A stretch of DNA of 64,000 nucleotides from Natrinema longum (GTDB lineage: Archaea > Halobacteriota > Halobacteria > Halobacteriales > Natrialbaceae), in assembly GCF_017352095.1 (NCBI RefSeq), contig NZ_CP071463.1:868001-932000 (forward strand), given 5' to 3'. Below are positions 2 through 45,377 of the stretch, one piece after another (positions within the stretch are counted from its first letter, which is position 1; each line of letters opens with the position of its first letter). Made by a program: the position numbers and the translations under genes. Below the pieces are notes generated by a model. It made no database searches, was not told the DNA's origin, and worked only from the letters and a program-made list of their open reading frames with translations.

Positions 2-190
2 GTGTTCAAGCAAGCATCGACGTTCGTCGGCGAGTTCGCGATCGTGTCCTACGTCGACGACGACTGGTGGGTGACGATTGCGACCGCCCATCCCATCCTC
101 GGAATCGATCGAACCCCACCGAAGCAGGTCAGTCGTGATACCATCCGGAGCTGGGGGATCGATCACGACGCCTATCTCTGCCAGCTGTAA
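2..190 (+). CDS. Hypothetical protein, 5' partial
   Basis: The reading frame is open from the left edge and ends with TAA at 188-190, one base before the ATG of the downstream ATPase, so the two are probably co-transcribed. The visible 62 residues are not recognised. They are rich in aromatic and acidic residues (VSYVDDDWW) and end in a Cys-Gln-Leu tail. A GTG lies at the very first in-frame position, but the gene more likely starts upstream of the window. Its position directly before a virus-type ATPase suggests a structural or assembly protein, by inference only. Confidence 0.5.
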   Translation: MFKQASTFVGEFAIVSYVDDDWWVTIATAHPILGIDRTPPKQVSRDTIRSWGIDHDAYLCQL

Positions 191-191
191 C

Positions 192-920
192 ATGGCTCGA
201 ATCACCGTGATCGGCGCGTCCGGCTCCGGCAAGAGCTACTACACCGGGGCGCTCCTCGAGGATCGCGTACCGAACTTCGACATCGCGGTTCACTTCGACC
301 TCGAGGACGAGGAGGGTGGACTGTCGGTCGAAGGCAACGCGCTCTACGGGACACTGGTCGTCGACAAGGACCGATTCGAGTCAATCGATTGGCCGAAATG
401 CCTCTTCAATCACCGGAAGCTCCGGGTCGTCCCCGACGCTCTGGACGACGAAGAGATCGAAGAACTCTACGGGCAGATCTGTGAGGCAGCGATGTCCCTG
501 TGCAAGGACCTGGAGATCGAGGCGGCCCCCGAGTCGGCGCTGGTCTCGTGCGACGAGGCCCATCAAGTCCTCAGTAAGCACAGCCTCGACAGCCGCGTCA
601 ACCGGATGCAGACCGGCGGACGGAAACACGGTGTCGAGACGATTCATCTCGCCCAGCGGCCGGCACTGATGCCGCTGACGATCCTCTCGCAGTCCGACCG
701 ACGGATCTACTTCCACGTCTCCGAGCAGCGCGACATCGACAAGATCAACAAGGCGAGCACGTTCGACGCTGACCGGCTGAAGAATCTGCAGGCTCGCGAG
801 GCAATCGTCGAGAACAAGCACTCGGGAGAGTTCGAAAAGATCGACACGGACAACTGCGACCGGGAGCGGCCACATTTCAGCGGCGACGACGGGATTCTGG
901 ACGACGCGCTGCCGGTCTAA
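192..920 (+). CDS. HerA/FtsK-type P-loop ATPase, virus-like
   Basis: This 242-residue ATPase has a Walker A motif GASGSGKS at residues 8-15 and a Walker B/Glu site LVSCDEAH at about 117-124. A conserved GGRKHG...LAQRP segment follows at about 141-156, as in FtsK/HerA-superfamily ATPases of haloarchaeal plasmids, pleolipoviruses and sphaerolipoviruses. Such proteins are thought to drive genome packaging or DNA translocation. I chose the ATG at 192 because it directly precedes MARITVIG, the P-loop beta strand; a frame extension to 78 would overlap the upstream gene and has no family-like sequence. It is convergent with the minus-strand gene ending at 917, with a 4-bp overlap at the 3' ends. The family call is firm; the packaging role is inferred. 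Confidence 0.8.
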   Translation: MARITVIGASGSGKSYYTGALLEDRVPNFDIAVHFDLEDEEGGLSVEGNALYGTLVVDKDRFESIDWPKCLFNHRKLRVVPDALDDEEIEELYGQICEAAMSLCKDLEIEAAPESALVSCDEAHQVLSKHSLDSRVNRMQTGGRKHGVETIHLAQRPALMPLTILSQSDRRIYFHVSEQRDIDKINKASTFDADRLKNLQAREAIVENKHSGEFEKIDTDNCDRERPHFSGDDGILDDALPV

Positions 921-2128
921 CCCTCGAATTCTTTCATCGGGTCGTAGCAGCTGCCGCCAGGACACTCGAATTTTCCAGTGGCCGGGTCAAAAGCCGATTG
1001 GAGACGTTCACTTAGGCGACCGAGTACGCCGGCTTGCTCGAGGGTTATCTCTCCCTCCTCTGTGGGGAACTCCTCGGTCGGATCATCAGGCATGACCCGT
1101 CCGCCCTCGAACCCGTCGAGATCGTCAAACTCGAGCGGATCCTGCCCGTGAACAGCCCGAATTCCGTTGATAACGCCGGCGTAGTGCTCGGCTTCGTCCT
1201 GTGCTTCTCGCGTCTCGGTTCGGGCGAGTTTGTACCCGGACCAGGCTTTCTTGAGTGCCGTCAGCGCTGGACCCGGAAGCCGGTCGCGACCGACATCGTC
1301 GGGTTCCGGTGTCGGTGCCAGTTGAGCGAGTTCCTCGTCGCTCGGTTCTTCCGGCGGGTCAGGCATCGAGCTTCGAGCCCAGGCTTCGAACGACTGTGAC
1401 TCGGTCTCGAGGTCGGGATCGTCGATGTCGTCCGGATCGGGGGCGGAAAAGACAGCTTCGGGATCCTCATCGAGATCGTCGACCGTCCCGATCAGGTCCT
1501 CGATATCGTCCCGATCGTAGCCACACTCTTCGAGCAGCGCCTCACAGGCGTCCTCTTTCCCGTCGGAACAGGCATCTTCGGCGCTGCTGCACATTTCTCC
1601 GTGGACCTTCTCGGCCTGCTTTGCGACCTGTGCCTGTCGCCGTTCTTCGTCTGCGTCGAGTCGATCCCCGACTTCTTGCTGTTTCCACTCGTCGGCGTGA
1701 CTCCGGTGCTCGTCGGTCGTGAGGTCTGGGTCGTAAAACGAGAGCCAATCGTCGATTCCGTGGCCCTGGAGGATCGCCTTCGCGGACTGCGCGTGGAAGA
1801 GGTGGCGGTGTGCCTCCCACGAGCCTCGATCCTCGAGTTGCTGTCGTTCGTTGGCAGTTAGCTCTTCTTGGCCAAACTGTTGGGCTTTTTCGGCCTTTCC
1901 GGATTCAGCGAGACGGACCGCTTCGTCGACGACGTAGTCGGGAGCCTCCGAGACGATCGTGACGGTCTTTGTCCGACGGTCATCGACTGGTGCAAGGTGG
2001 TCCGGGTGATCGTCACGAAACGAGTTCGCAACGTCGATCGTCCCGAACCGGATCTCTTCCGGATCGTCGATGTCGGGAGGACCCGGGTGAGAGGGCTGTG
2101 GCTCGTCAGTTCTACTGCGGGAACTCAT
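917..2128 (-). CDS. Large acidic hypothetical protein of the virus-like module
   Basis: The protein has 403 residues and is very acidic, with long Asp/Glu/Pro-rich linkers and charged helical stretches (about residues 130-170). A cluster of cysteines lies near the middle (CSSAEDAC...C...C), and a CPGGSC motif sits close to the C-terminus. I do not recognise a named family. The start at 2128 (MSSRSR) was chosen because the 39 residues upstream in frame are low in acidic residues and unlike haloarchaeal coding sequence. It converges on the ATPase gene and is separated by about 150 bp from the small-protein operon upstream on the same strand. It could be a virion or scaffolding component, but nothing in the sequence proves that. 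Confidence 0.6.
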   Translation of the reverse strand: MSSRSRTDEPQPSHPGPPDIDDPEEIRFGTIDVANSFRDDHPDHLAPVDDRRTKTVTIVSEAPDYVVDEAVRLAESGKAEKAQQFGQEELTANERQQLEDRGSWEAHRHLFHAQSAKAILQGHGIDDWLSFYDPDLTTDEHRSHADEWKQQEVGDRLDADEERRQAQVAKQAEKVHGEMCSSAEDACSDGKEDACEALLEECGYDRDDIEDLIGTVDDLDEDPEAVFSAPDPDDIDDPDLETESQSFEAWARSSMPDPPEEPSDEELAQLAPTPEPDDVGRDRLPGPALTALKKAWSGYKLARTETREAQDEAEHYAGVINGIRAVHGQDPLEFDDLDGFEGGRVMPDDPTEEFPTEEGEITLEQAGVLGRLSERLQSAFDPATGKFECPGGSCYDPMKEFEG

Positions 2129-2280
2129 GCGTATTCTACTAGCCGGGTTACGAGGAAATAGATTAGTGAAAACTGGAGAATCAGGGGACGTAATGGCGAA
2201 ATTGGGCCGATCTATTGGCCGGGCCGTGACGTTCGAACCCGGCACTCGAGAACCGCCTGTGGAGGGCCGAAGCGAAGATA

Positions 2281-6047: not shown

Positions 6048-6193
6048 TCAAGCTAATTTTCGTGCTGACAGCGTGATTCCCCACGTTCTGTAGGGATAAA
6101 TATCCAGATCAAGGACATCACGGAATTCTGTACCTAACGGTACAGTTCCCAACAGGACATCCTCTGATATACACTCACATGTATTGTGTATAG
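6048..6193 (-). pseudogene. C-terminal fragment of an IS-interrupted gene
   Basis: Reading leftward out of the IS end, the frame encodes about 48 residues (SPIHNTCECISEDV...LSARKLA) before its stop at 6048. It continues a plausible protein-like sequence and is on the same strand as the truncated membrane/coiled-coil gene on the other side of the IS (7133-7311). I infer that both are pieces of one gene split by the insertion. No clear target-site duplication was found, so a deletion may have accompanied insertion. Confidence 0.4.
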
Positions 6194-7132
6194 GGCTGCG
6201 TTGAATCACTAGACGGCGTCGGGGAAGGTCAGTAAATCGAAGGAGTTGAAGCGGGGAAATTTGGTTGTCCATGACACAAATCTCCCGCTTCACCGAGCGT
6301 TGCGTCTTGATTGCACAAAGAGTTACGGGTGAACGAGGCGAATCCGCCGCCCCGACTGGTGGCGGCGGATTCGCCGACTATGCCCTCATTTCGCTGCATT
6401 GCCTCCGGATTTACCTCGATACGTCCTACCGGATGACGATCGATCTGTTGAAGGAAATGCCGCAAATAACAGGGGAGATCGGCCTTGACGTGGCCGATCT
6501 CCCCGATCCATCTACGCTGTGTAAGTCGTTTGATCGGATCGAGATGAGTGTCTGTCGAGTGCTGCTGCGCCACTCGGCGCAGCTGCACAACCCCTCTGAA
6601 CACGCTGCTATCGACGCAACATTCTACGAACGTGATCGTGCGAGCCGCCACTACTGCCACCGAACGAATTACCGCGTTCAAACGCTCAAAGTCAAAAACT
6701 CGTCGATACAGCAACGCAAGCCGTTCTTGATCTCCACTGTTCAACAACGTTAGAAGGAAGCGACGCGGACCTCTGTGAGCAGATCGCCCGCCGGAATGCG
6801 GGCGATCTGCGGTCCCTTGCCGCTGACAAGGGCTACGATAAGCAAGCGCTCCGCGACCAGCTCCGTGAACTCGACATTCGCCCGCTGATCAAACATCGGA
6901 TCTTCGCCCCATACGATCACGCTCACAACGCTCGTATTGACGACAATCGGTACGCTCAGCGATCAATGACTGAAACCGTGAACTCCGCAATCAAGCGCTC
7001 GCTCGGCTACGCCGTGCGAGCGCGTACCTGGTATCGAGAGTTCCGTGAAATCACCCTGATGTGTGTCGTCTATAACATCAAGCGGGCCGTCAAACAGTGA
7101 AATCCACCGCCGTATGGCGATTCAACACAGCC
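6194..7132 (+). mobile_element. IS5-type insertion sequence
   Basis: The element is about 0.94 kb with terminal inverted repeats GGCTGCGTTGAATC (6194-6207) and GATTCAACACAGCC (7119-7132), matching at 13 of 14 positions. It carries one transposase frame broken once. The internal protein has the IS5-family DDE layout common in haloarchaeal ISH elements. No direct duplication is visible at the ends. Confidence 0.8.
6271..7100 (+). pseudogene. IS5-family transposase with a frameshift
   Basis: The first part (to about 6690) has the DDE domain start with the first Asp in AAIDATFYERD, then ...YCHRTNYRVQTLKVK. After GTC followed by five A residues near 6692, the frame must move by -1 to continue as LVDTATQAVLDLHCSTT...EGSDADLCEQIARRNAGD...ADKGYDKQALRD...AQRSMTETVNSAIKRSLG...VYNIKRAVKQ, ending at 7100. 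The second fragment holds the second Asp (DKGYD) and the C-terminal Glu region. A single-base deletion in the A tract is the simplest cause; programmed -1 slippage is possible but is not usual for single-ORF haloarchaeal IS5 elements. Start ATG at 6271. Confidence 0.75.
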
Positions 7133-7311
7133 ATCAACTCTGTTTGCTTCGCCATTAGCTCCTTTTGTTGGGCCTGTGTGTCGACTTGCCGCCGTAGCTC
7201 GGCATGCTGCTGATAATAGAGATACGCTAGAATCCCAGACAACAGAAGAGAGCCCAGTCCGCTTAGTACTCCAACCCAACTTTCGATATTATTGATCCAG
7301 AGAAGAACCAT
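7133..7311 (-). pseudogene. N-terminal fragment of membrane/coiled-coil protein, truncated by IS
   Basis: From ATG at 7311 the frame encodes a membrane segment (VGVLSGLGSLLLSGILAYLYY) followed by a charged coiled-coil (QQHAELRRQVDTQAQQKELM). At 7132 it runs into the IS right end and stops inside it, at 7090. About 59 native residues remain. The same architecture (one TM helix plus Gln/Glu coiled coil) is common in small haloarchaeal island proteins. Together with 6048-6193 it marks one disrupted gene. Confidence 0.5.
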
Positions 7312-7534: not shown

Positions 7535-9505
7535 ATGACTAGAACACAACCACCCCTTCCGGATATTGACCGTGATTTAGATGCAAATTGGCCAGCTCCC
7601 GGTTATAGAAGTGGACAACAGAGGATCTACAAGGAGGCCGCTTCAGTTCTATTCGGTGATACTGACCACGACATAATCGTAATCGATGCTCCGACTGGAG
7701 TTGGAAAGTCAGTTATTAACACTGCTCTCTGCAATTTAGCGAACAGCTCTTTTTACACAACACCACAGAAATCACTTCGAGATCAACTTGTAAACGATTC
7801 TCTGCTGAATGGATACGTAAATACACTTCGTGCTCGCAAGGACTATATCTGTGACTATGCTTCGAGTCCTGGTGATCCGGTAAATTGTGCAGAGTGCCAC
7901 GTCAACAACACCGACATCGAGAAATGCAGCGACCATTCAGGCTGCCAGTATTGGAACGCAAAGGAGCGTGCTATAGAATCAAAGATAGCGGGATTGACGT
8001 TTGCATATCTTAGAATAGACGGTTTCATTCCGGTTGTTAACCCAAACTCAGATGATCAAGAGCAGATTTCATTTGGCGATCGCGAACTGCTTATTGTAGA
8101 TGAAGCACATTCAATTGAACAACAGTATTCGTCGATGTTTGCTGGGTTTAAACTCACGCCTGAACTCTCAACCAACCTTGAAGAATTAGGAATCGGTGAG
8201 TCACTTCGATCTGCAATCCCTGACTCCTTGTTCCATGCTGAGGATCCTAGTCACGATTTAGAACTGGCTCCGCTTGAGGATCACATTGTTAGCAACGATC
8301 TTATTGACGATTTATTTGGCGCAAAGGAGGATGCGATCGCCGAACTCCAAAATCACAGAAAAAGGTACGCACGATTAGTGAAAGGGGCTATCAGACGGAA
8401 GCAAAATTTGGAGACGGGACTCTCTGAAGCGGAGTTGCAGGCCCAGATTTCTGAGGGCATGGCCGATTTTATAGAGAATCTTAAGCTCCCTGAGTCAATC
8501 GATATGCGGATGGTTGATGCGAAGGACTATCCTTCTCAGCCACTGTCTGAGCTTCGCAATGAGATCGAGAAAGAGATTCAAATCATGGGAGAACTCCGCG
8601 ATTTTGTCAGTAATATTGAGGTAGGCTTCTCCGACGAGTATGATCCTGAAGAGAACCCTTGGTTTGTCGATGTTAATACCGGTCCACTCACGGCGACAGA
8701 ATACAAATTTAACCCTGCAAACGTTGGTGACCTGCTTAAGCAACAGATCTGGAATAGAGCCGATAAAGTAGTTCTCTCATCGGCTACTATTCCTTCTCAT
8801 GGGGCAACTGACCGCAAGGAAGGTATCTTAAAGTGGGTAGATCGGATCGGTTTGGATCCTGAATCAACACACGTTATCACTGAAGATTCACCCTTCCCGG
8901 TTGAGAATCGCAGGGTTAGGATTGACTACATCGGGAATATGTCAAGCGGAGGTTTTGATGCCAATATCGACGAAATCAGCCGTACCATCAACGAACTTTC
9001 CACTCTCCACCCTAGTGAGAAGGGTCTTGTCCACGTTTCAAGCTATAAGCAAGCTTCTCATCTTGGGGAGACAATTGACGATCTTAGCGATGTGGACGTA
9101 TCGGTTACTGTCCATAAGAAAGAACAAGATGCTGAATCAGCGCTTGCAACGTGGCAGGGCGGCCAATCTGACTCTGCTACCTACACTGGGACACAGATTT
9201 TAATCACACCATCTATGAAGGAAGGCGTAGATCTTGCGGGAGACAAGTGCCGCTGGCAGGTGGCCACAAAAGTACCATATCCGAATTTGGCAGATCCCAG
9301 AGTCCGCTATCTACAGGAAAATCGAGGTTGGTCTTGGTATCATTCTGAGGCAACGACTGAATTAGTCCAAGCTGCAGGCCGTGGCGTCCGTAGTGCTGAG
9401 GATAATTGCGAATTTTACGTACTTGATGAGGCGTTTAAGAACGTCTGGCATTTAGCTCCGTCTTGGTACTGTGATGCAGTTACATCAGAGTCTCGGCCTG
9501 ATTAG
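7535..9505 (+). CDS. DinG/XPD-type superfamily 2 helicase with Fe-S cysteines
   Basis: This 656-residue protein has helicase motif I DAPTGVGKS at about residues 50-58 and a cysteine cluster at about 108-140 (YIC...NCAECH...KC...GC) placed as in the 4Fe-4S domain of XPD/DinG enzymes. It also has motif II VDEAH at about 187-191, SSAT motif III (VLSSATIP) near 427, and motif VI QAAGRGVRS near 619. Family members unwind DNA 5'-to-3' using ATP. This copy lies on an AT-rich island next to a recombinase and Kiwa genes, not in a chromosomal repair setting, so a role in defence or element replication is plausible but inferred. A central acidic insertion (about 230-370) is unusually long. Two dyads precede the start. 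Confidence 0.85.
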   Translation: MTRTQPPLPDIDRDLDANWPAPGYRSGQQRIYKEAASVLFGDTDHDIIVIDAPTGVGKSVINTALCNLANSSFYTTPQKSLRDQLVNDSLLNGYVNTLRARKDYICDYASSPGDPVNCAECHVNNTDIEKCSDHSGCQYWNAKERAIESKIAGLTFAYLRIDGFIPVVNPNSDDQEQISFGDRELLIVDEAHSIEQQYSSMFAGFKLTPELSTNLEELGIGESLRSAIPDSLFHAEDPSHDLELAPLEDHIVSNDLIDDLFGAKEDAIAELQNHRKRYARLVKGAIRRKQNLETGLSEAELQAQISEGMADFIENLKLPESIDMRMVDAKDYPSQPLSELRNEIEKEIQIMGELRDFVSNIEVGFSDEYDPEENPWFVDVNTGPLTATEYKFNPANVGDLLKQQIWNRADKVVLSSATIPSHGATDRKEGILKWVDRIGLDPESTHVITEDSPFPVENRRVRIDYIGNMSSGGFDANIDEISRTINELSTLHPSEKGLVHVSSYKQASHLGETIDDLSDVDVSVTVHKKEQDAESALATWQGGQSDSATYTGTQILITPSMKEGVDLAGDKCRWQVATKVPYPNLADPRVRYLQENRGWSWYHSEATTELVQAAGRGVRSAEDNCEFYVLDEAFKNVWHLAPSWYCDAVTSESRPD

Positions 9506-9648: not shown

Positions 9649-10236
9649 ATGAATCTGAAACAGCACGAGAATCGCGACGATATGAAGGTCTGGCTCAGCC
9701 AGAACGAAGTAGAACAGTTGCTCGAGGCTGCCGATGGAACCCAGCAGCGGATCGCGTTCGCGCTCGGTGCCCGCTGCGGCCTCCGCTCACACGAAGTCCT
9801 CGACGTCGCTCCTGAGGATATCGTCGATACTGATGCCGGAACGATGCTCCGCGTCTGGCACGGGAAAGGGGACAAGTTCCGCGAGACGCCAGTCCCGCGA
9901 GATCTGGCGACGACCATCCGTACTGTCGACGACGTCCGCGACGCGCCGACCAGCTCGTCGCTCGTCGAGATCACGAGTACTCGATCGCTTCGCCGGTGGG
10001 TTCGATCGGCGGCTAACCAGCTGTATGACAAGACGGAAGACGCCGGATGGAATCATCTCGGCTTTCACGACCTCCGACGGACCTGGGCGACTGCACTTGC
10101 CTCCGCTGACGTCGATCCGCTCTTGGTGTGTGATTGGGGAGGATGGAATGATCTTGAGACCTTCCTTGAACACTACCGGGGAAGTTATAGCCCAGAGGCA
10201 CAACAACGAGAGAGAAATAAGGTTGATTGGCTTTAG
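9649..10236 (+). CDS. Small XerC/D-like tyrosine recombinase (catalytic domain only)
   Basis: The 195-residue protein has the catalytic domain alone, with no SAM-like core-binding domain. The first Arg is in the helix RCGLRSHEVLDV (about residues 44-55), followed by a Lys-bearing beta hairpin (WHGKGDKFRETPVP), HDLRRTWAT carrying His-x-x-Arg (about 141-149), and a final HYRG carrying the likely Tyr nucleophile (about 177). Catalytic-domain-only recombinases are frequent on haloarchaeal plasmids and proviruses. An internal ATG at 9679 is an alternative start. Two dyads with shared arms lie directly upstream. It is followed by the Kiwa genes, and a dyad at 10242-10266 follows its stop. Confidence 0.85.
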   Translation: MNLKQHENRDDMKVWLSQNEVEQLLEAADGTQQRIAFALGARCGLRSHEVLDVAPEDIVDTDAGTMLRVWHGKGDKFRETPVPRDLATTIRTVDDVRDAPTSSSLVEITSTRSLRRWVRSAANQLYDKTEDAGWNHLGFHDLRRTWATALASADVDPLLVCDWGGWNDLETFLEHYRGSYSPEAQQRERNKVDWL

Positions 10237-10422: not shown

Positions 10423-10995
10423 ATGGCAGAGTACAGAGGATATTTAAAATGGCTTCTTTTCTTCAGTTCTTTCACACCTCTGTATGCAATATTAATGTTC
10501 AAACACTGGGGGTTCAAAGTAACAGTAGATCATAGATATTTGAGCGAATACACTGGTATTGAATCTATTGATGTTCCTATTCTTACTGTTCTCTGGATCA
10601 TCCTGACAATAGCTTCTCTATTCGGTCTCTGGCTTGCAATATCTGTTAGAAAGACTAAGGAGCCGAAGTGGACTGATGTTGAATCATATCGAAGCCGGAA
10701 TGATCTTATAACTAGTTATATCTTAGTCTATATTTTCCCATTTGTGGTTCTTGACTACACGGAAGTGGGTAACTGGTTAGCTTTCGGCGTATTCTTTATT
10801 GTGATTGGAATTGTTCAGGTGCGCTCTAACCAACTTCATGTAAATCCTGTCCTGGCCATATTTAATTACGATATATATGAAATTGATACAGGGCGGAAAC
10901 AGATTACGTTAATATCTCGCAAGAACCCTGACAAGTTCCCAGAATCTGTTCAAACAATAGAACTAAGTAATGACGTACATATCGCCGCTTACTAG
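10423..10995 (+). CDS. kwaA: KwaA-like four-TM membrane protein (Kiwa defence)
   Basis: This 190-residue protein has four membrane segments: about 10-30 (WLLFFSSFTPLYAILMF), 50-75 (ILTVLWIILTIASLFGLWLAI), 98-115 (YILVYIFPFVVLDY) and 120-140 (WLAFGVFFIVIGIVQV). A cytosolic tail follows with NPVLAIFNYDIYEIDTGRKQITLISRKN, the arrangement I know for KwaA. In bacteria KwaA is the membrane subunit of the Kiwa anti-phage complex, which senses infection at the membrane and works with KwaB. I chose ATG 10423 because GGAG lies 8 nt upstream; the frame is open back to 10339 without membrane-protein character. The KwaB gene starts 2 bp after the stop. Codon usage is strongly AT-rich compared with core genes. 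Confidence 0.75.
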   Translation: MAEYRGYLKWLLFFSSFTPLYAILMFKHWGFKVTVDHRYLSEYTGIESIDVPILTVLWIILTIASLFGLWLAISVRKTKEPKWTDVESYRSRNDLITSYILVYIFPFVVLDYTEVGNWLAFGVFFIVIGIVQVRSNQLHVNPVLAIFNYDIYEIDTGRKQITLISRKNPDKFPESVQTIELSNDVHIAAY

Positions 10996-10997
10996 CA

Positions 10998-11984
10998 ATG
11001 GATGTGGAGGATGCGCATGACCATTTGCGTAAAGCAAAGGATCTCGTTAACGAGGATCCCACAAATTATACTAGACAGTTTCTTTTAGTAGACAAATCTG
11101 ACAATATTGATGGAGAATATGAGGCTGGAGAGGTTCCTCTTCACAGAAATATTCAGATAAAAATTAGCAAGTGGGTTCTAGAGCAACTTCAGACTGAACT
11201 CAACAAACTAAAGAACGAGTCTAGAAGCCTAGCAAAATACGATATTGAAAATGCTAATAAAAAGAAGGTGCCTATTCAGTACATTGATACTGATGACGTA
11301 CCTTTGTTTGATCGTTTTCAGTCAATCGTAATGGGGAATTCTTTCTCTGAAACAACTTATGGAGAAGAAGATGACCCATCTTTTCAAGTATTCCGGGCGA
11401 TTAATCGGCTTCATCAGGATCGCTTTGCAGCATTTAGTGTATATACAAAAAGCCAAATAATTGGACATACATGGAAAATAAAAGCTGCCTTGAGAGGAAA
11501 CGAGTATAATACGTTTGAGGAGGACCTAGTTGCTCTACCAGACACATATGACGTTATATATTATAATGGTGTCCTTTTCATTTTCAACCCTGGAAGATTC
11601 GAGAAGATGTTTGATTATTTCGAGACATATGAAGAGAGTGCATCAAGCGTTTTCGACAGTTTAGAAGAGTCTGATCTCACAATACATAATCTAGACAAAG
11701 TAAAGACAACAGTGATGAACGACAATATCTCTCTGAGAAAAATGAGTGTTATTGAAAAAGTCGGTGTATATGATTCACTAACACTTGATAAAGCAGAAGA
11801 GATAATTAATGAATATAATCTGAATCTAAATATTGAGGAAGATCCTGAGGATGGCCGAGGAATTAGGGTCCCAGACTTGCGACACCGCCATGATCTTCTA
11901 CGGTTATTAAACGATGATCATCTAGCATCCGAATTAACAAATGAGCTCTACCAGGTATATGGGAAAGATCGCCGGTCTGATTGA
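10998..11984 (+). CDS. kwaB: KwaB-like protein, DUF4868 (Kiwa defence)
   Basis: This 328-residue soluble protein has a core (about 140-290) with the DUF4868 pattern: FAAFSVYTKSQII, the hydrophobic strand DVIYYNGVLFIFNPGRFEKMF, then a helical C-terminal part ending RVPDLRHRHDLLRLLNDDHL. KwaB in bacterial Kiwa binds DNA and, with membrane KwaA, blocks late phage transcription or replication. It starts 2 bp after kwaA, so the pair is one transcript with no other cargo. The ending NELYQVYG is like other family members from memory. AT-rich base composition supports transfer from a lower-GC source or long residence on mobile elements. I see no frameshift or truncation. Confidence 0.75.
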   Translation: MDVEDAHDHLRKAKDLVNEDPTNYTRQFLLVDKSDNIDGEYEAGEVPLHRNIQIKISKWVLEQLQTELNKLKNESRSLAKYDIENANKKKVPIQYIDTDDVPLFDRFQSIVMGNSFSETTYGEEDDPSFQVFRAINRLHQDRFAAFSVYTKSQIIGHTWKIKAALRGNEYNTFEEDLVALPDTYDVIYYNGVLFIFNPGRFEKMFDYFETYEESASSVFDSLEESDLTIHNLDKVKTTVMNDNISLRKMSVIEKVGVYDSLTLDKAEEIINEYNLNLNIEEDPEDGRGIRVPDLRHRHDLLRLLNDDHLASELTNELYQVYGKDRRSD

Positions 11985-12043: not shown

Positions 12044-12334
12044 TCAACCACGTAACGCTCGAGGAGACGGCGTCGGTCGGTTCCCAACATCGAGCTCGCC
12101 GTCGAGATACTCTGTCCCCTCGCAGGTGATCTCGTACATATTGCTGTCCTCGAAGATCGGGGCGACGAGCCCGACCTGAGAAAGGAGTTGACACCGTTCG
12201 TCAACCCGCCCACGCGATGCTATGAGTTTGATGACTTGAGACATATGCCGTGGTGTAGACCACGGATTATCTGAAAGGTGCTCAAGAATCCGTTCATCCA
12301 GTGTGCACATCCAGCGGGCGGGCTTCCGGCTCAT
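12044..12334 (-). CDS. PhiH1-repressor-like winged-helix protein (copy 1)
   Basis: This 96-residue winged helix starts MSRKPARWM with DERILEHLSDNPWSTPRHMS (helix 1), a recognition region RVDERCQLLSQVGLVAPI, and the wing MYEITCEGTEYLDGELD. This is the pattern of the haloarchaeal phage PhiH1 repressor family, which controls lysogeny. It is convergent with kwaB and is the first of three paralogues on this strand within 1.4 kb. Targets are unknown; it could regulate the island or be an anti-superinfection repressor. Confidence 0.75.
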   Translation of the reverse strand: MSRKPARWMCTLDERILEHLSDNPWSTPRHMSQVIKLIASRGRVDERCQLLSQVGLVAPIFEDSNMYEITCEGTEYLDGELDVGNRPTPSPRALRG

Positions 12335-12432
12335 TACGTTTCAGTGGTTTGGCTTGCAGTTGGACCGTCGTTCGAGCCGTTTCTGTTGAGATCTACCTCG
12401 TTTTCAGCACCATGCACCTTTTCAGAATATCG

Positions 12433-12774
12433 TCAAATCGAGAATGACACATAATCATTTCGTTTGTAAAGATAATATGGCGAGACAATAAACGATAAAG
12501 CACCCATCGTTATAAGAACGAGAAATACAAGAATCCAAGTCAACCATTTTCCGGGACTCCGTTGTGAGGTGGTCTCTCGAATGTACCGTGCATCATATAC
12601 AAGTGAAATTGAATATAAGAGTACCAACCCCAATTGGATGTAGCGAATGGTGATACTATCCTGTACAAAGAGAATGAAAAAGTACACTATTAGATAAAGA
12701 AAAGGCAGTACTGCGACAACTTGCCACCAGTCATCCCGGATGGAACTCATTGAATTGGATTTTGTATTAGCCAT
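12433..12774 (-). CDS. Multi-pass membrane protein
   Basis: This 113-residue protein has three to four hydrophobic segments: VVAVLPFLYLIVYFFILFV, YIQLGLVLLYSISLVYDARYI, WLTWILVFLVLITMGALSFIV and a short C-terminal part. It resembles haloarchaeal small membrane proteins often placed beside PhiH1-type regulators, but I cannot name a family. It is AT-rich and sits between two PhiH1-like genes on the same strand, so the three may form one regulatory unit. Confidence 0.6.
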   Translation of the reverse strand: MANTKSNSMSSIRDDWWQVVAVLPFLYLIVYFFILFVQDSITIRYIQLGLVLLYSISLVYDARYIRETTSQRSPGKWLTWILVFLVLITMGALSFIVSPYYLYKRNDYVSFSI

Positions 12775-12798
12775 AATTATATATTATATTAATTAGTC

Positions 12799-13101
12799 TT
12801 AAATTCTGGTGATTCGTTTTCTGATCAACTGTTGTGATGGCTTTGGCTGATGGTCCGCATCTATTTCACCCTCAAGATAACGTATCCCCCACGTCGTAAT
12901 CTCATACATATCATGATGGACTGGAGCAATTAAACCAGCACAGGCGAGCATCTGACATCGTTCTCTTATTCGACTCTTTGACGCTCGGAAGTACGATCTT
13001 GAATCCATCACTGACACTGACGACCATGGTTCTTCATCCAGATGCTCGAGTATACGGTCATCGAGTTGCACCATCCAAGACGCAGAGTGGCGCTGTTTCA
13101 T
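12799..13101 (-). CDS. PhiH1-repressor-like winged-helix protein (copy 2)
   Basis: The protein has 100 residues. It has the same layout as the first copy: SWMVQLDDRILEHLDEEPWS, then SKSRIRERCQMLACAGLIAPV and the wing MYEITTWGIRYLEGEID, with a basic C-terminal tail (QQLIRKRITRI). The Cys in ERCQML is shared with the other copies. It probably binds operators as a dimer. Its start is 10 bp from the stop of copy 3, so these two are likely co-transcribed. Confidence 0.75.
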   Translation of the reverse strand: MKQRHSASWMVQLDDRILEHLDEEPWSSVSVMDSRSYFRASKSRIRERCQMLACAGLIAPVHHDMYEITTWGIRYLEGEIDADHQPKPSQQLIRKRITRI

Positions 13102-13110
13102 ACGAATAGG

Positions 13111-13425
13111 TTAGGTTGAATTTTGGACGCTATTTGTAGAGGAATCGGCTTTATCTTCGTTCCTATTAACTCGAGTCCAAGTCTCTGTGTCAAGTTCACC
13201 TTTGAGATAGGCTTCACCCTCATCAGTGATGACGTAGACTCCGTTACCAAGATGGGTGAGAAGCCCTTTCTCGTTGAGTTTCCTGCACCTTCGGGCGATA
13301 TGCTGCCGAGAGTAGCGAATATGACCCTTATCTTTCATTTCTTTTGGAGAACCTGAATCGTTCTCGTAAATATATTCTAAAATACGATCATCGACGAGAG
13401 ACATCCAGTCTCCTGAGTAGCGCAT
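13111..13425 (-). CDS. PhiH1-repressor-like winged-helix protein (copy 3)
   Basis: This 104-residue winged helix (MRYSGDWMSLVDDRILEYI..., RYSRQHIARRCRKLNEKGLLTHLGNGVYVITDEGEAYLKGELD) has a polar C-terminal tail. The start at 13425 aligns with the other two copies; upstream in-frame codons to 13533 run into the hairpin-rich intergenic region. It is divergent from the zinc-ribbon gene series that leads to the integrase, which is the classical position of a lysogeny repressor. Confidence 0.7.
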   Translation of the reverse strand: MRYSGDWMSLVDDRILEYIYENDSGSPKEMKDKGHIRYSRQHIARRCRKLNEKGLLTHLGNGVYVITDEGEAYLKGELDTETWTRVNRNEDKADSSTNSVQNST

Positions 13426-13541
13426 ACTCTCATATACGCTTCGACGGTGTCTAAATATACTTAAAATAGCATTCGCACTCCCATGGTTCACAGATAAGTT
13501 CCCGTAACATTCATGTTCCGGGAGGCTACACATGTGGTTGA

Positions 13542-14005: not shown

Positions 14006-14251
14006 ATGGTCGACGACGCGCTCGTCGACGCGGTCGAATCGATCCCGGACGCTGATCCCGACAGCATCGCGCAGTACGACGACGATTATGGTCACTTCGT
14101 GATCCACAGCGATGCCGACGAGCAAGACGTCGCCGAGATCGACGCGGCCCTCGAGGACGCGGGCTACGAACGCGACGGCCACCTTCCCGTCCCCGACATG
14201 GTACAGCAGAACTTCCGTCCGCTCGAGGACGGGGAGGGGGATGACGAATGA
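14006..14251 (+). CDS. Small acidic hypothetical protein
   Basis: This 81-residue, strongly acidic protein has no cysteines. The sequence (VDAVESIPDADPDSIAQYDDDYGHFVIHSD...) alternates predicted strands and helices and looks like a small alpha/beta domain. It starts 1 bp after the previous stop and ends overlapping the next start by 4 bp. No family is recognised; co-expression with the zinc proteins and integrase is likely. Confidence 0.55.
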   Translation: MVDDALVDAVESIPDADPDSIAQYDDDYGHFVIHSDADEQDVAEIDAALEDAGYERDGHLPVPDMVQQNFRPLEDGEGDDE

Positions 14252-14736
14252 GCGGACACCCGCTCTACTCCTGCGACACGCCCGGCTGTGACGGCTGGAA
14301 AGAGGTAATCACGCCCGACGGCTACGTCTGCGAGGACTGCGCGGACGAACTCGCGACGGACTACGAAGCCGAGCCCGAGCTGGTGGCCGACGGCGGCATC
14401 GCCTGGGGCGACCTCACCGGATTCCAGCGGGACATTCTCGAGGCGATCGCCGCCATTGGCTCCACTGGCGAGGATTCCTACGGCCTCGCGATCAAGGAGC
14501 AACTCGAGCAGCACCACGACGAAGTTCTCCACGGACGGCTGTACCAGAACCTCGACAGCCTCATCGACGACGATCTCCTCGAGCGCGGGGAACTCGACGG
14601 GCGGACGAACAGCTACACGCTGCTGCCCGAAGCCAAGGCGCTGCTTGAGGAGAGCGTTCACCGACGCGCGGACGCCTGCGGGCTCCAAGTCACCGAAGCC
14701 GACGACAGCGACGAGAGCGGTGATCAGGATGAGTAA
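14248..14736 (+). CDS. Zinc-ribbon plus winged-helix (PadR-like) protein
   Basis: The 162-residue protein has an N-terminal zinc ribbon (CDTPGCDGW...CEDC, about residues 9-34). It joins a winged-helix domain (LTGFQRDILEAIAAIGSTGEDSYGLAIKEQLEQ, then LYQNLDSLIDDDLLERGELDGRTNSYTLLPEAKALLEE) like PadR-type regulators. It probably binds DNA and could control excision or replication of the element. The ATGA overlap with the upstream gene and the 8-bp overlap with the next start show translational coupling. Confidence 0.7.
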   Translation: MSGHPLYSCDTPGCDGWKEVITPDGYVCEDCADELATDYEAEPELVADGGIAWGDLTGFQRDILEAIAAIGSTGEDSYGLAIKEQLEQHHDEVLHGRLYQNLDSLIDDDLLERGELDGRTNSYTLLPEAKALLEESVHRRADACGLQVTEADDSDESGDQDE

Positions 14737-15078: not shown

Positions 15079-15281
15079 GTGACCGGTCTATAGAAGGTAC
15101 TGAACCCAGCGCGACGACGCACAACAAGTGGGTCTGTGAGGAGTGTGGAAATGTCGTCTGGCTACCTGATGATTCTCTCGGCCTCCAAGTAGATCACTCC
15201 AAACGACCGTTTTGCGGGTGTTCAGAACAAGGAATCCGAATGACACAGATCTATGGTAAAGAGGGGGAGGTGTCGATATGA
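15075..15281 (+). CDS. Zinc-ribbon mini-protein, 68 residues
   Basis: The pattern WVCEECGNVVWL...PFCGCSEQ gives two Cys knuckles for a rubredoxin- or TFIIS-like zinc ribbon. It overlaps the integrase start by 4 bp (ATGA), so integrase translation is coupled to it. It may be an excisionase-like helper, but that is inference from position only. Confidence 0.5.
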   Translation: MSDRSIEGTEPSATTHNKWVCEECGNVVWLPDDSLGLQVDHSKRPFCGCSEQGIRMTQIYGKEGEVSI

Positions 15282-16285
15282 CCGATGACCTCGAGCCGAT
15301 CTCACCACGCGAAGCGGTCGACCTCTACGTCTCACACCGCGAACTCGAGGTGAGCGAGAAGACGCTCCAGAATCACAAGTACCGGCTCGACGCCTTCGTC
15401 GAGTGGTGCAACGAGGTCGGGATCGACAACCTCAACGATCTCACCGGCCGGCATCTCCACCAATACCGAGTGTGGCGACAGCAGGACGTGAACATCGTGA
15501 CGCTCCGCGGGCAGCTCGCGACGCTCCGCGTCTTCCTCGAGTTCTGTGCGTCGATCGACGCCGTCGAACCGGGGATGCGCGAGCGGGTGAAACTGCCGGA
15601 CGTCGACCGCGGTGACGAAGCGCGCGACGAGATGCTCGACGCCGATCGTGGTCACAAGATCATCGGCTACCTCGAGCGGTACAAGCGCGCGAGCCGTGAC
15701 CACGTCATCATGGCGATCCTCTGGCACACGGGGATCCGCCTCGGGAGTCTTCGCGCGGTCGACCTCGAGGACTACGAGCCCGACGAGCAGTGCTTCTGGT
15801 TACGACACCGGCCCGATACGGGCACGCCGCTCAAGAACCAGGGGCCAGCCGAGCGGGCGATGGCACTCGACGACTACTACTGCGATGTCCTTGACGAGTA
15901 CATCCGTTTTCACCGTCACGATGTCGTGGACGAACACGGCCGCGAGCCGCTCGTCACGAGCGACCAGGGGCGGCTGAGTTCCGGACAGATTCGTTCGGAG
16001 GTGTACCGGCTTACCCAGCCCTGCCTGATCGGGGAGTGCCCGCACGACCGCGATCCGAACGACTGCGAAGCCACGGAGTACGGGCACTACTACGACTGCC
16101 CGAGCAGTCTCTCGCCGCACACTATTCGGCGCGGGGCGATCACCTACCAGCTCCGCGAGGACATTCCCGAGAAGATCGTCAGCGACCGCTGTGACGTTTC
16201 CTCTGAAGTCCTCGATCGCCACTATGACCGCCGTACAGACCGTGAGAAGATGGAACAGCGACGCGACTTCATCGAAGACCTATAA
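15278..16285 (+). CDS. Tyrosine integrase of the tRNA-Ala island
   Basis: The protein has 335 residues. The N-terminal SAM-like core-binding domain (about 10-105) is followed by the catalytic domain with Arg in HTGIRLGSLRAVDL (about 155), SPHTIRRGAI carrying His-x-x-Arg (about 287) and the likely nucleophile in DRHYDRRTDREKM (about 319). A Cys/His insertion (CLIGECPHDRDPNDC...YYDC) between them suggests a zinc-stabilised loop typical of haloarchaeal integrases. It points toward the 3' end of tRNA-Ala, 114 bp away, so it most likely inserted the island there. The left att copy is outside the window. Confidence 0.9.
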   Translation: MTDDLEPISPREAVDLYVSHRELEVSEKTLQNHKYRLDAFVEWCNEVGIDNLNDLTGRHLHQYRVWRQQDVNIVTLRGQLATLRVFLEFCASIDAVEPGMRERVKLPDVDRGDEARDEMLDADRGHKIIGYLERYKRASRDHVIMAILWHTGIRLGSLRAVDLEDYEPDEQCFWLRHRPDTGTPLKNQGPAERAMALDDYYCDVLDEYIRFHRHDVVDEHGREPLVTSDQGRLSSGQIRSEVYRLTQPCLIGECPHDRDPNDCEATEYGHYYDCPSSLSPHTIRRGAITYQLREDIPEKIVSDRCDVSSEVLDRHYDRRTDREKMEQRRDFIEDL

Positions 16286-16399
16286 CAGGAACATGACTCT
16301 CACACAAGCCGCTGTCAGCACTGTCGTATCGATAGCCGCCAGAATACCCACAGGGAACGGAATTCGGCAATTAGAAGGCCTGAAACGCCAAATTTCGAG

Positions 16400-16471
16400 T
16401 GGACTCGCCGGGATTTGAACCCGGGGCCTCTCCCATGCCAAGGGAGTGATCTACCCCTGATCTACGAGCCC
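16400..16471 (-). tRNA. tRNA-Ala (anticodon GGC), island attachment site
   Basis: The cloverleaf has a GGGCTCG/CGAGTCC acceptor stem, a T arm with GGTTCAAATC, an anticodon stem CTCCC/GGGAG with loop TTGGCAT (anticodon GGC), and discriminator A. CCA is not encoded. The 3' half faces the integrase, so the 3' end is the likely attB of the island. Confidence 0.93.
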
Positions 16472-17582: not shown

Positions 17583-17653
17583 GCGCGGATGGTCTAGTGG
17601 TAGGACCTGAGCCTTCCAAGCTCATGGCCCGGGTTCAAATCCCGGTCCGCGCA
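17583..17653 (+). tRNA. tRNA-Gly (anticodon TCC), attachment site of second island
   Basis: Acceptor GCGCGGA/TCCGCGC, anticodon stem TGAGC/GCTCA with loop CTTCCAA (TCC) and T arm GGGTTCAAATCCC give a full cloverleaf; discriminator A at 17653. The 3' 43 bp recur at 23634-23676. Confidence 0.93.
17611..17653 (+). repeat. attL: 43-bp 3' end of tRNA-Gly
   Basis: The segment from GCCTTCCAAG to the tRNA end is repeated directly at 23634-23676 with one mismatch (TCCGCGC versus TCTGCGC). The frameshifted integrase at 17875 lies just inside, so this is the left junction of an integrated element. Confidence 0.8.
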
Positions 17654-17874
17654 CTCCATAGCCCTTCTCCCGTTGGTTTTCCGGGTTTCCAGCAATGACC
17701 CGACCATGCCATTCGAAGCTTACAACGTGGGTTGGCGTATCGCACCCCGGAGCCGCCCCCGGATTATAAAAAGTTTCAGGCTTACTAGGGGTATAGTCAG
17801 CGGTTCCCCTGTTTTCGCGGAATCGGAGGTGAGGGCTTATGTAGGATGAACGTAACGAGGTCGATGGAATCGTT

Positions 17875-19040
17875 GTGGTTCCGGAACAGTCGGAGAAATA
17901 CTTGAACCAGCGGCAGCTCGAGGACTACCACAGCTTCCGGACACAGTTGATCAAGTGGCTTCTCAACCTGGGAAAGGATCCGGAGATGGCTGAGGGTTAC
18001 GCGTTCGACACTACGCAGCAGAGAGGGCATAAACTGGATCAGTTCTACCGGTGGATCTGGAGGCAGGAAGAGGGTTATACGCTCCGCGTCACGACAGATC
18101 ACGCGGACGAGTACTGTAAGGAGTTGGTGTACGAGGAGCTGTCGAAGACTCACAAGGCTGCTGTCCAGAAAGCGATCAAATCACTGTTCAAGTATTTGAA
18201 CCATGAGAGAGGACGGAGTATCGACTGGGAGCCGGAGATCAAGTTCTCCAGTGGAGGAGCTACACACCAGATACGGGACTTCCTGACAGGAGACGAACGA
18301 CGGAAGATCAAACAGAGTGGTCTCGAGTACGGATCCATACCCCACTACAACTCCCTCGATCCCCGAGAACGAGAGAAGTGGAAGACTCATCTGGCGCAGC
18401 GGTTCGAGAAACCGAAGAACGAGGTAACCAGGAGTGACTGGGAGAAAGCGAACGGCTGGAAGTATCCCTCTATCGTCTACACATCGATGGACGCAGGACT
18501 AAGACCCAAGGAGGTTGGACGCGCCAAGACAAGCCGGTTGGATCTCGAGAACGGGATGCTTCGAATCCCCAAGGATGAGTCCACGAAGAATACGGATGAC
18601 TGGCACGTCGCTCTCAGCGAACGCACATCGAATATTCTCCGGAAATGGGTGAGTGAACGAGAGATTACGAAAAGTACCGGGGGACGGAAGCACTGTGGCT
18701 TACCAAGTACGGAAATCCGTACGGTAGCTCGTCGCTCAACCGGTTGCTGGACAAACTCTGCGAGGAAGCCGGTATTCCGGTGGAGCACAGGGATATGTCC
18801 TGGTACTCAATTAGACACAGTGTAGGTCCGCAGATGAGCCGTGACCAGGGACCCGCCGCCGTCCAACAACAGCTTCGACAGAAAAGCTATGAGATGGCTG
18901 TCCGGTACGACCAGGCACCTGTAGGCGATCGACAGGAAACGGTCAACAACTGGGACTCAATACTTCTTGATCCGGTTCCTCTGGCTCTGTTGAAATCCCA
19001 TTCTTCAGATAAATTATCGCCTGAAACAGCCGGTCGATGA
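17875..19040 (+). pseudogene. Frameshifted tyrosine integrase of the tRNA-Gly island
   Basis: The first frame (17875 to about 18663, GTG start) has the core-binding region and the first catalytic Arg in YTSMDAGLRPKEVGRAK. Near 18663 a -1 shift is needed to read on as DYEKYRGTEALWLTKYGNPYGSSSLNRLLDKL...SWYSIRHSVGPQMSRD...LRQKSYEMAVRYDQAP. This holds the second Arg (SIRH) and the Tyr (RYDQ). One missing base is the simplest cause, so the element has probably lost mobility unless the base is a sequencing error. The last 20 residues diverge from integrases and coincide with a GGCTCTGTTGAAATCC motif at 18983, matching the MITE-like ends at 22270 and 22631. Confidence 0.8.
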
Positions 19041-19145
19041 GAGCTGCGTATCGATCGCTGAGGGTTCTGCCAGTTCTGATAGTTGTTCAAGTAGTCGTGC
19101 AAGCCCAAAGCGCGCATTCAGTAGCAAATCGATTACAGGACCAGG

Positions 19146-19451
19146 TTACTCGTCATGATCGTCATCGATCTGTTCAAGAAACCGACGTACCTCGTTGAAT
19201 TTCATTCCTCGCCGTACCTTGTCTTCGAACCTGTCGAACTCGACGAACCCCTCATCCGATAATTCGGGAAGTAGGACGTGATGGAGTTCGTAACAAATCG
19301 TGAGGTACTCCCCGGAGTTGAGAGTCTCTCCCTTACGAAGAATCGGGTCAGCAGACATCGAACTCTCGTCGAGGAGCGCACGTAATACTCGCCGCTGTTG
19401 CGCTGAGAGTACCCGTTTGATGCGATCTTGGTTACAGCGTTCGTCACTCAC
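19146..19451 (-). CDS. DUF7344-like haloarchaeal protein
   Basis: The protein has 101 residues. VLSAQQRRVLRALLDESSM is a winged-helix-like start, followed by LTICYELHHVLLPELSDEGFVEFDRFEDKVRRG, where 'LHHVLLPELSDEGFVEFD' matches the haloarchaeal DUF7344/ArsR-like pattern 'LHHVHLPKLEEAG...D'. These are numerous in haloarchaea and are probably DNA-binding regulators. It stands alone on the minus strand, upstream of two further minus-strand genes. Confidence 0.65.
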   Translation of the reverse strand: MSDERCNQDRIKRVLSAQQRRVLRALLDESSMSADPILRKGETLNSGEYLTICYELHHVLLPELSDEGFVEFDRFEDKVRRGMKFNEVRRFLEQIDDDHDE

Positions 19452-19493
19452 AGGTCAAGTAGTTGCTACCGATCCGGCCACGCTCGAAGTCGT

Positions 19494-19679
19494 TCACTCC
19501 GAATGCTCGTTCTTTTCGACTTCGGTGACGATCACGTCCCAGTCAGGATGTTCGACCCCATTCCGACATTCGAATCCGCCTTCCACATCGATTCCACTCT
19601 CGTAGGCCCTGCGAAGGAGGTCTTTCAGCTCCGCGTTTAATTCTTCCTTCGACGCAAGCGAGGTCTCCTCAGACGTCAT
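19494..19679 (-). CDS. Small haloarchaeal hypothetical protein (HEWD-like)
   Basis: This 61-residue protein has a helical N-terminus (KEELNAELKDLLRRAYESGIDVEGGFECRNG) and ends VEHPDWDVIVTEVEKNE; the H-P-D-W-D motif is typical of short haloarchaeal proteins that accompany HalOD1 genes. It overlaps the upstream HalOD1 gene by 4 bp, so the two are coupled. Function is unknown. Confidence 0.6.
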   Translation of the reverse strand: MTSEETSLASKEELNAELKDLLRRAYESGIDVEGGFECRNGVEHPDWDVIVTEVEKNEHSE

Positions 19680-20026
19680 CTTCCCGCCCCCCTTTCGTGT
19701 TTCTCCACTGCGAGTTCGTTTTCTGGTGTGATAGTGATCACACCGTAGCTGTGTACGGTTATTGCGTGCCCCTCGTACGTGAATGCAGCGTGGGTATCCC
19801 CGTTTGTCCCGTTGCGAACGCGGACGAGCGCATCTAATTCGTCGGCGTCAACAGTGGAATGGAGCGGGTCGAGTTCGACAGGGTCAGTATCCATTACGTC
19901 CGCCAGCGTTGCGACAACAGCCATGCTCGCTGGTGTCTTCTCCTGATCGAACTGGGTGCGAACAGTCCCAGATTCCTGAGCGTACTCAACCGCTTCTACT
20001 CCAACCCCAGATATCGTTGTACCCAT
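19676..20026 (-). CDS. HalOD1 output-domain protein
   Basis: The protein has 116 residues. The core (SMAVVATLADVMDTDPVELDPLHSTVDADELDALV) is the hallmark of the haloarchaeal HalOD1 output domain. A beta-rich end (AAFTYEGHAITVHSYGVITITPE) follows. HalOD1 domains are found alone or fused to response-regulator receivers and are presumed signalling outputs. This one is stand-alone and leads a two-gene unit with the HEWD-like protein. Confidence 0.8.
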   Translation of the reverse strand: MGTTISGVGVEAVEYAQESGTVRTQFDQEKTPASMAVVATLADVMDTDPVELDPLHSTVDADELDALVRVRNGTNGDTHAAFTYEGHAITVHSYGVITITPENELAVEKHERGAGR

Positions 20027-20108
20027 CTAGACTGATTCTAGCCGTCTGAGTCGGTTCAACAGGGATACTGATAGTACAGTAGGTTTAAAACGCAGACTAT
20101 CCGAACGA

Positions 20109-20753
20109 TCACGACGAACTGCTGAGTGTCGCTCCAATAAGGCGTCGATGTCCCCGACGGAGTCGTGACGATAGTGACTGCTGGGTGATACCGAGTTCGT
20201 CGGCAATCTCTTCGAGCGACGCCTCGCGTGGGGAGTCGAAGTAGCCCCGTTCGTAGGCTAGTACCAGCGCCTCGCGTTGGGTCTCGGTCAACTCGTAGCC
20301 CTCTCCCTGGATCGGAAGCATGGCGTGGACGGCGGTGATCGCTATCGGAATATCGTTTTCCTGGCAGTATTCTCGAAACTCAGCGAGCGTCTCCTGACTC
20401 TCACCGCGTACCTCGAACCGCCATTCCTCTTTCGTTCCAATCCCGGAAAGCACGACGACGTTGGCCTTGGCAAGCGCACTCAGGATGCCGAAGTACTCTG
20501 ACTCCCACTCGGCCCGCATGAGATACTCGTCTTCGACGCTATCGACCACTCGAATGTTGCTCACGCCGGAATGTGACTCGAACGCAGCTTCGATATCCTT
20601 CGTTTCTACATCGCGCACCCAGAAGTACGGGATAATCAGCGTCTCGTGTGGAATCAATCGCTCCAGTTCAACGGTCACACCCGGCAGGTTCTCGAACACA
20701 CTTCCCAGCGGAAACTCCGCTACCGGACTCGTAAACTCCATCACAGTCGCCAT
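20109..20753 (-). CDS. HTH-10 (bacterio-opsin activator-like) regulator A
   Basis: This 214-residue protein has a ligand-type N-terminal domain (about 1-150, starting MATVMEFTSPVAEFPLGSVF) and the HTH-10 region LTETQREALVLAYERGYFDSPR...LEEIADELGITQQSLSSRLRRGHRRLI at the C-terminus. This family (Bat-like) activates haloarchaeal genes. The start at 20753 was chosen because its N-terminus aligns with the paralogue at 20945 (MSVITEVRIPSDDFELGQIL). The two are divergent with 191 bp between, centred near a perfect palindrome. Confidence 0.85.
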   Translation of the reverse strand: MATVMEFTSPVAEFPLGSVFENLPGVTVELERLIPHETLIIPYFWVRDVETKDIEAAFESHSGVSNIRVVDSVEDEYLMRAEWESEYFGILSALAKANVVVLSGIGTKEEWRFEVRGESQETLAEFREYCQENDIPIAITAVHAMLPIQGEGYELTETQREALVLAYERGYFDSPREASLEEIADELGITQQSLSSRLRRGHRRLIGATLSSSS

Positions 20754-20885
20754 GCGGAAGCCTTCGTCTGGCAGACGAATAACCGGCATGGGTGGTGTAT
20801 CATGGCTTCGAGACGAGTCAACGCACTGTTGCTGGCCGAGATGGTGTGCGCTGCGAGCGGGGTGTACCTCTGGCACCCGGATGGC

Positions 20886-20899
20886 CATGGTGCACCATG
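20886..20899. promoter_or_regulatory. 14-bp palindrome between divergent HTH-10 genes
   Basis: CATGGTGCACCATG is a perfect palindrome 45 bp upstream of the ATG of regulator B. A related TATGCACCATGG recurs at 21625-21636, downstream of regulator B and upstream of the DUF7344-like gene. This suggests one factor, perhaps one of the HTH-10 proteins, binding at both. Confidence 0.5.
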
Positions 20900-20944
20900 T
20901 CACCTCCTTTTGTGCAACCGGACAATCTAGTCTTACAAGCGAGT

Positions 20945-21610: not shown

Positions 21611-21668
21611 CTGTTTCCATTATGCACCATGGGACAGAGCCAGGCAGATGGGACTACGCTATGTGAGT

Positions 21669-22076: not shown

Positions 22077-22269
22077 CAGAATATCGGATCGACTTCCCCT
22101 TCGTTCGACCTAAATCAGCCGTATTGTACGAATATGTATTGTTCGTCGTCTTCAGTCTCTCATTGAAACGCTCTGGGTGAACGAGGATGGGGAACGGTTG
22201 ATTGATACTACAGTTCAATCGGTGCGTCGAGGGTAGGATCGGCATCAAGGATCGTAGATAGGGTCGGCT

Positions 22270-22631: not shown

Positions 22632-22689
22632 GCATTAGATGAACTGGACGGTTTCAAACAGTCAGACACGGAGAAAGTATAGAATAAGG

Positions 22690-23431: not shown

Positions 23432-23633
23432 GTATAGATGTAAGCCCTAAAGCTCACGACACCGGCCTTTATAATATCCTAAATAGTATTACGAGCCGAG
23501 GAAACCGGGAACGCTAACGAGGGAAAATGCAAGACTGAGACGGGGTGACTGTCGAAGTTGGTGTTGAATCTGTGTCGTTCTGCGTCGAATTGAACCCTGT
23601 TTGATGGGTGAAATCACACGGATTGTGATAGAA

Positions 23634-44788: not shown

Positions 44789-44843
44789 CCTCTATTTGAT
44801 GTCTAAGTACATACCGAAAAATGTGAGAACAGTGGCGAAAGTG

Positions 44844-45353: not shown

Positions 45354-45377
45354 AGTGGAAATAAGGGATTAGCTCAA

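Follow-up and report, generated by a model that had tools for sequence, protein, structure and literature searches.

A divergent Kiwa operon in a predicted SH1-like provirus of Natrinema longum

The gene pair at bp 10423-11984 of a 64,000-bp stretch of Natrinema longum DNA (positions 868,001 to 932,000 of contig NZ_CP071463.1, hereafter the window) is a genuine Kiwa operon, kwaAB, of a divergent haloarchaeal clade, as supported by profiles, homology and AlphaFold superposition. The operon lies in a cargo slot of variable content that adjoins a conserved small recombinase, within an element that is, judged by its gene content, an SH1-like (alphasphaerolipovirus) provirus integrated in a tRNA-Ala gene. 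The relevant features are given in Table 1.

Table 1. Features of the kwaAB operon and of the part of the provirus that lies in the window
Feature	Position	Strand	Description
Packaging ATPase	78..920	+	58.6% identical to SH1 ORF17; phrog_2666 E 7.4e-66
p442	917..2245	-	Backbone protein adjoining ATPase; phrog_22825 E 1.2e-80; conserved in sister proviruses
DinG-family helicase	7535..9505	+	Cargo; PF13307 E 8.9e-22; PADLOC typeIV_DinG 1.1e-56
Xer195	9649..10236	+	195-aa stand-alone tyrosine-recombinase catalytic domain; PF00589 E 5.7e-18; provirus backbone flanking cargo slot
kwaA	10423..10995	+	190 aa; Kiwa membrane sensor subunit; four predicted membrane helices and C-terminal beta domain
kwaB	10998..11984	+	328 aa; DUF4868/KwaB effector subunit; acidic, pI 4.7
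wHTH1	12044..12334	-	Winged-helix regulator, backbone; 68% in Kiwa-less L128, 62% in L096
Small membrane protein	12433..12774	-	ORF between wHTH1 and wHTH2
wHTH2	12799..13101	-	Winged-helix regulator, backbone; 69% in Kiwa-less provirus L132
wHTH3	13111..13533	-	Winged-helix regulator, backbone; 75% over 80 aa in proviruses L137, L139
PadR-like regulator	14248..14736	+	Backbone; PF03551 32 bits; 75% in L096
Integrase	15278..16285	+	PF02899 above cutoff; 94% identical in Natrialba aegyptia element at tRNA-Ala
Right attachment repeat	16392..16412	.	ATTTCGAGTGGACTCGCCGGG; overlaps tRNA-Ala 3' end; left copy outside window
tRNA-Ala (ggc)	16399..16471	-	Integration site; ARAGORN

Gene structure and identity of the operon

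Both open reading frames are intact and lie where the initial annotation had placed them, as an operon in which 2 bp separate the kwaA stop codon (10993-10995) from the kwaB start (10998). The kwaA start is the same in most aligned homologues and is preceded by GGAG; a start at the in-frame ATG at 10339 is less likely. The AT-rich composition that had been remarked on is evident from the G + C content of kwaAB (0.379, and 0.342 at third positions, versus 0.655 in chromosomal DNA located further to the right), and the recombinase that had been proposed next door is the catalytic domain of Xer195, just upstream of kwaA. Scans for sigma-70 promoters and terminators, models that are unsuited to archaea, gave no excess over shuffled sequences.

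The core of the initial annotation, which had read the pair, with no more than the sequence to go on, as the Kiwa operon (KwaA-KwaB) of a mobile island in a haloarchaeon, was supported by profiles as well as folds. By sequence comparison the profile matches far exceed chance. KwaA matched the PADLOC KwaA models (best E 1.5e-29 for PDLC00208, covering 94% of the profile), and KwaB matched both PADLOC KwaB (E 2.1e-17) and, in line with the DUF4868 assignment, Pfam PF16162 (73.8 bits; curated cutoff 26.3). Homology to solved E. coli proteins was found for KwaA (9mrg in the PDB; phmmer 2.9e-6, profile 3.6e-18) and for KwaB (profile 3.3e-11 to a solved Kiwa protein). The NCBIfam equivalog cutoffs were missed by KwaA (NF041622, 76.4 of 100 bits) and by KwaB (NF041623, 47.3 of 200 bits), and the operon is therefore termed a divergent Kiwa clade, not an equivalog.

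Structure prediction, which had been suggested as a check, gave two models that are folded like solved Kiwa proteins. The AF2 model of KwaA (pLDDT 83.5) superposed on 9mrx_A with Z 19.9 (rmsd 3.2, 177 aligned), and that of KwaB (pLDDT 87.6) on 9mtn_B with Z 19.5 (rmsd 4.2, 286 aligned) and on 9mrx_D with Z 19.2 (297 residues). Strong structural matches of both models were limited to the cryo-EM KwaA-KwaB complex and to solved KwaA and KwaB, and the superposition on the complex spans nearly the full length of both. The four transmembrane segments claimed for the first protein were recovered as predicted helices at residues 3-27 (kinked), 53-77, 93-108 and 115-134 of the model, the last three also being strong by hydropathy. 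The motif NPVLAIFNYDIYEID, which had been described as a tail, is present but is not terminal: it covers residues 141-155, at the junction of the membrane helices and the C-terminal beta domain. In an alignment of haloarchaeal and viral-contig sequences, KwaA residues F13, S15, S16, P19, Y99, Y103 and N141 are invariant. In KwaB, R247 and F201 are among the conserved positions.

The window operon has in common with solved Kiwa (9mrx, 9mrg, 9mrr, 9mtn, 9nyu) the same two genes, the folds (Z 19-20), the membrane helices of KwaA and the NP motif. It differs in sequence (E. coli Kiwa is 15-19% identical to the window proteins), in an acidic KwaB (39 K+R versus 64 D+E), in scores below the NCBIfam equivalogs, in its archaeal membrane and in carriage by an archaeal provirus.

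The provirus and its cargo slot

An exact repeat of 21 bp occurs at 16392-16412 of the window and at 855491-855511 of the genome, 28.9 kb apart. In the conspecific genome G202, which has no Kiwa, the flanks of the element are contiguous, with an overlap of approximately the 21-bp repeat and an intact tRNA-Ala gene; the 28.9 kb between the repeats is therefore an inserted element, of which the window covers the right 16.4 kb. The element encodes a VP4 that is 53% identical to that of SH1, a VP7 (phrog_12422, E 3.2e-72) and further SH1-like head proteins. With two major capsid proteins, a packaging ATPase, attachment repeats and an empty site, the mobile island appears to be, specifically, an SH1-like provirus; a generic island was rejected because of the SH1-like capsid genes and the empty site.

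Alphasphaerolipovirus-like proviruses beside tRNA genes were already known (PMC5332951), and tRNA-Ala is an attachment site of related elements (PMC3622292), tRNA-associated integration being a shared trait. VP4, VP7, the ATPase and the head proteins are likewise shared with SH1, PH1, HHIV-2, HCIV-1, HalaCibP1 and HaloLacP1 (PMC5332951); unlike these viruses and proviruses, the window element is integrated together with a defence cargo region that includes Kiwa. VP4 was present in 7 of the 391 Halobacteria-class genomes sampled, representing eight proviruses, only one of which carries Kiwa. A search of IMG/VR for SH1-like VP4 was unproductive.

Elsewhere in the window, a second integrative element (17583-23676) lies in a tRNA-Gly gene, the 3' end of which (17610-17653) is repeated at 23633-23676 (98%); it contains an integrase-like frame (17875-18825). 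The region 44001-47000, beside tRNA-Pro (47235-47306), has a low G + C content (0.49-0.54) and may be another integrated element.

Several of the VP4 proviruses share a backbone consisting of wHTH regulators, Xer195, p108, p131, p442, the ATPase, capsid genes, RHH and SWIM. A variable region, often with defence genes, adjoins Xer195, or the wHTH genes where Xer195 is missing. In this region G028 carries a type IIG restriction-modification enzyme plus an HNH type IV endonuclease, G246 an HNH endonuclease, G084 an Mrr-like endonuclease plus an Aga-like restriction enzyme, and G122 PDC-S31. Xer195 is 88-92% identical in the sister elements L096, L128 and L134, and perhaps has a role in cargo exchange. 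Its conservation (about 87-92% in most) beside variable cargo was observed in the haloarchaeal proviruses L096, L111, L128, L132 and L134.

The initial annotation had credited Kiwa with its own regulators. The wHTH genes (12044-13533) and Xer195 recur in SH1-like proviruses that lack Kiwa; they are therefore provirus backbone and not components of Kiwa. On these grounds the wHTH genes were rejected as Kiwa-specific regulators and Xer195 as a Kiwa-mobilising gene, although the latter flanks the cargo. The DinG-like helicase was rejected as a third Kiwa gene because none of the other Kiwa loci examined has it nearby; no CRISPR genes were noted near it. The small membrane protein between wHTH1 and wHTH2 had no significant family match and was not found near other Kiwa operons. 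The cargo region also holds an IS-like element (6192-7137) with a transposase-like frame (6265-6753); five copies of approximately 96% identity are present in G202, none of them at this site.

Distribution of haloarchaeal Kiwa and its genomic settings

An archaeal Kiwa had been put forward as an extension of the known host range. However, KwaB was detected in 26 of the 391 Halobacteria-class genomes and, in a sample of the phylum, in 6 more Halobacteriota genomes outside the order (with kwaA beside it in 5 of these), and the idea that Kiwa is new to archaea was rejected. Named carriers include Natrinema salsiterrestre, Natronosalvus, Halobellus, Natrialba aegyptia, Haloferax larsenii, Halorientalis and Halopenitus. 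Three haloarchaeal plasmid proteins bear the NCBI label 'Kiwa anti-phage protein KwaB-like', among them that of Halobacterium sp. BOL4-2 (L071); in both loci that have a neighbouring KwaA it is annotated as hypothetical. Haloarchaeal Kiwa is not novel as a database fact, yet it is little discussed in the literature surveyed, in which Kiwa was studied in bacteria only and no paper was found that names Kiwa together with Haloferax.

In 23 of the 26 haloarchaeal loci kwaA is adjacent to kwaB, with nearly all gaps or overlaps below 45 bp. The three loci without an adjacent full KwaA are L100, where KwaB is full and intact and KwaA is reduced to its last ~36 residues, L081, in which KwaA was not found, and L104, a plasmid of Natrinema salinisoli with a KwaB remnant of 155 aa and no KwaA near it. 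Decay of haloarchaeal Kiwa thus occurs, as seen in L104 and L100, and an IS is present in the same cargo region as kwaAB, as would be expected if the operon were passively carried, inactive or decaying cargo left after transfer. Against this, both frames in the window are open and of full length, the invariant KwaA residues are kept and the spacing of the two genes is conserved; we regard this reading of the operon as quite unlikely.

The haloarchaeal sequences cluster together (100/99) in a phylogeny built from concatenated KwaA and KwaB, and within this cluster the window Kiwa groups with L080 and N. salsiterrestre (100/99). A Kiwa operon from a bacterial (Nitriliruptoria) MAG, L031, is nested inside the haloarchaeal clade, for which inter-domain transfer or a misbinned haloarchaeal contig are possible explanations. 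The haloarchaeal KwaB proteins that were checked have a pI of 4.35-4.73, and those checked from other archaea and from viral contigs are mostly neutral to basic. Most Kiwa loci found on viral contigs (L037-L050) have the order kwaB-kwaA, opposite to the archaeal loci, including that of the window. No match to KwaA or to KwaB was found in annotated phage records; the KwaB alignment was unproductive as a scan query, having too little conservation.

Two relatives of the window operon are also carried by tailless elements. The Kiwa of Natrialba aegyptia is divergent (30-35% identity) and flanks Xer195 on the opposite side, in an element at the same tRNA that has a 94% identical integrase and an HJIV1/HCIV-1-like virion module including VP3. 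L080, the nearest Kiwa relative (KwaA 52%), is part of an element that encodes an SNJ1-like protein and a related integrase and also has similar wHTH genes. Three haloarchaeal Kiwa operons, that of the window included, are therefore carried by tailless icosahedral proviruses or provirus-like elements of three different kinds.

A different setting is BREX-5. Nine of the 26 haloarchaeal Kiwa operons are embedded in, or lie directly beside, BREX-5 genes; their positions there differ, and they fall on two distinct branches of the tree, which points to at least two separate events of entry. Kiwa is situated either between the brxC/NucS-domain genes and pglX or after brxHII. The BREX-5-embedded Kiwa loci listed are L071, L072, L082, L084-L086, L091, L095, L097, L101 and L102. 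The Kiwa operons of this setting, such as that on the Halobacterium sp. BOL4-2 plasmid, belong to the same haloarchaeal clade as the window Kiwa; they differ in their position between the brxC/NucS-domain genes and pglX and are about 30-35% identical to the window proteins. The PglZ of BREX-5 was present in 62 of the 391 genomes and in 11 of the 26 genomes with Kiwa (Fisher one-sided p 7.6e-4, with related genomes counted as independent), an excess that mostly reflects physical linkage. The genome of the window itself had no match to BREX-5 PglZ, and the literature search yielded no paper that treats Kiwa with BREX type 5.

Carriage by a provirus, between provirus regulators, could also mean that kwaAB mainly serves the provirus, for example by stabilising lysogeny or tuning virus release, and does not exclude other viruses. 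This is very unlikely in our view, as the family is also found outside proviruses, including the BREX-5 loci above, and as unrelated restriction enzymes fill the slot in sister proviruses.

Proposed function

The most likely function of kwaAB, by analogy with bacterial Kiwa, would be superinfection exclusion, by which the provirus probably protects its host from competing viruses. The combined reading, a bona fide divergent haloarchaeal Kiwa that is cargo of an SH1-like provirus in tRNA-Ala and would act in superinfection exclusion, is one in which we have considerable confidence. In bacteria, as summarised in PMC12904381 citing Zhang et al. 2025, a KwaA tetramer in the membrane, with KwaB dimers, senses the entry of a virus; according to the same review, KwaB binds DNA and does not cut it, and replication and late transcription are blocked at the injection site. 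By extension, a KwaA tetramer in the ether-lipid cell membrane would sense the perturbation produced when a virus attaches or its DNA enters, KwaB dimers would be held by KwaA at the inner face of the membrane, and KwaB would bind the incoming viral DNA uncut, so that its replication and late transcription would be blocked. Provirus and host would both benefit from the exclusion of competing viruses. KwaB is strongly acidic, and DNA binding therefore need not work as it does in bacteria.

That acidity would also suit a KwaB that is toxic, is restrained by KwaA and kills or arrests the infected cell instead of holding viral DNA. PMC11514479, citing a 2023 preprint, describes an effect of KwaB on its own and a need for KwaA in its controlled expression; the account in PMC12904381, of DNA binding without cutting and of a block at the injection site, argues the other way, and we consider cell killing unlikely. 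Within the preferred reading of superinfection exclusion, a broader version is tentative and in our estimation well short of even odds: Kiwa would be an immune cargo that recurs in haloarchaeal proviruses of the tailless, internal-membrane type (SH1-, HJIV1- and SNJ1-like); it would act in molar salt at an archaeal ether-lipid membrane, through a KwaB that is acidic and holds DNA, and the repeated insertion of Kiwa into BREX-5 loci would reflect functional cooperation with BREX.

Proviral carriage itself has a parallel in bacteria, where 220 of 1019 Kiwa systems are in prophages (PMC9090908); the window differs from these in host domain and in virus type, its provirus being of a tailless kind with an internal membrane. 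The additions made here are the carriage of Kiwa by an SH1-like provirus for which an empty site exists, the slot for defence cargo, the recurrence in three kinds of tailless provirus and the repeated embedding in BREX-5. The last of these hints at a partnership, which is open to test. The slot beside the conserved small recombinase is a place to seek further archaeal defence genes, and the provirus setting leads to the concrete hypothesis that a provirus of an archaeon equips its host to resist rivals. Haloarchaeal Kiwa would, finally, offer a test of whether sensing at the membrane requires lipids and a cell envelope of the bacterial kind, which haloarchaea do not share.
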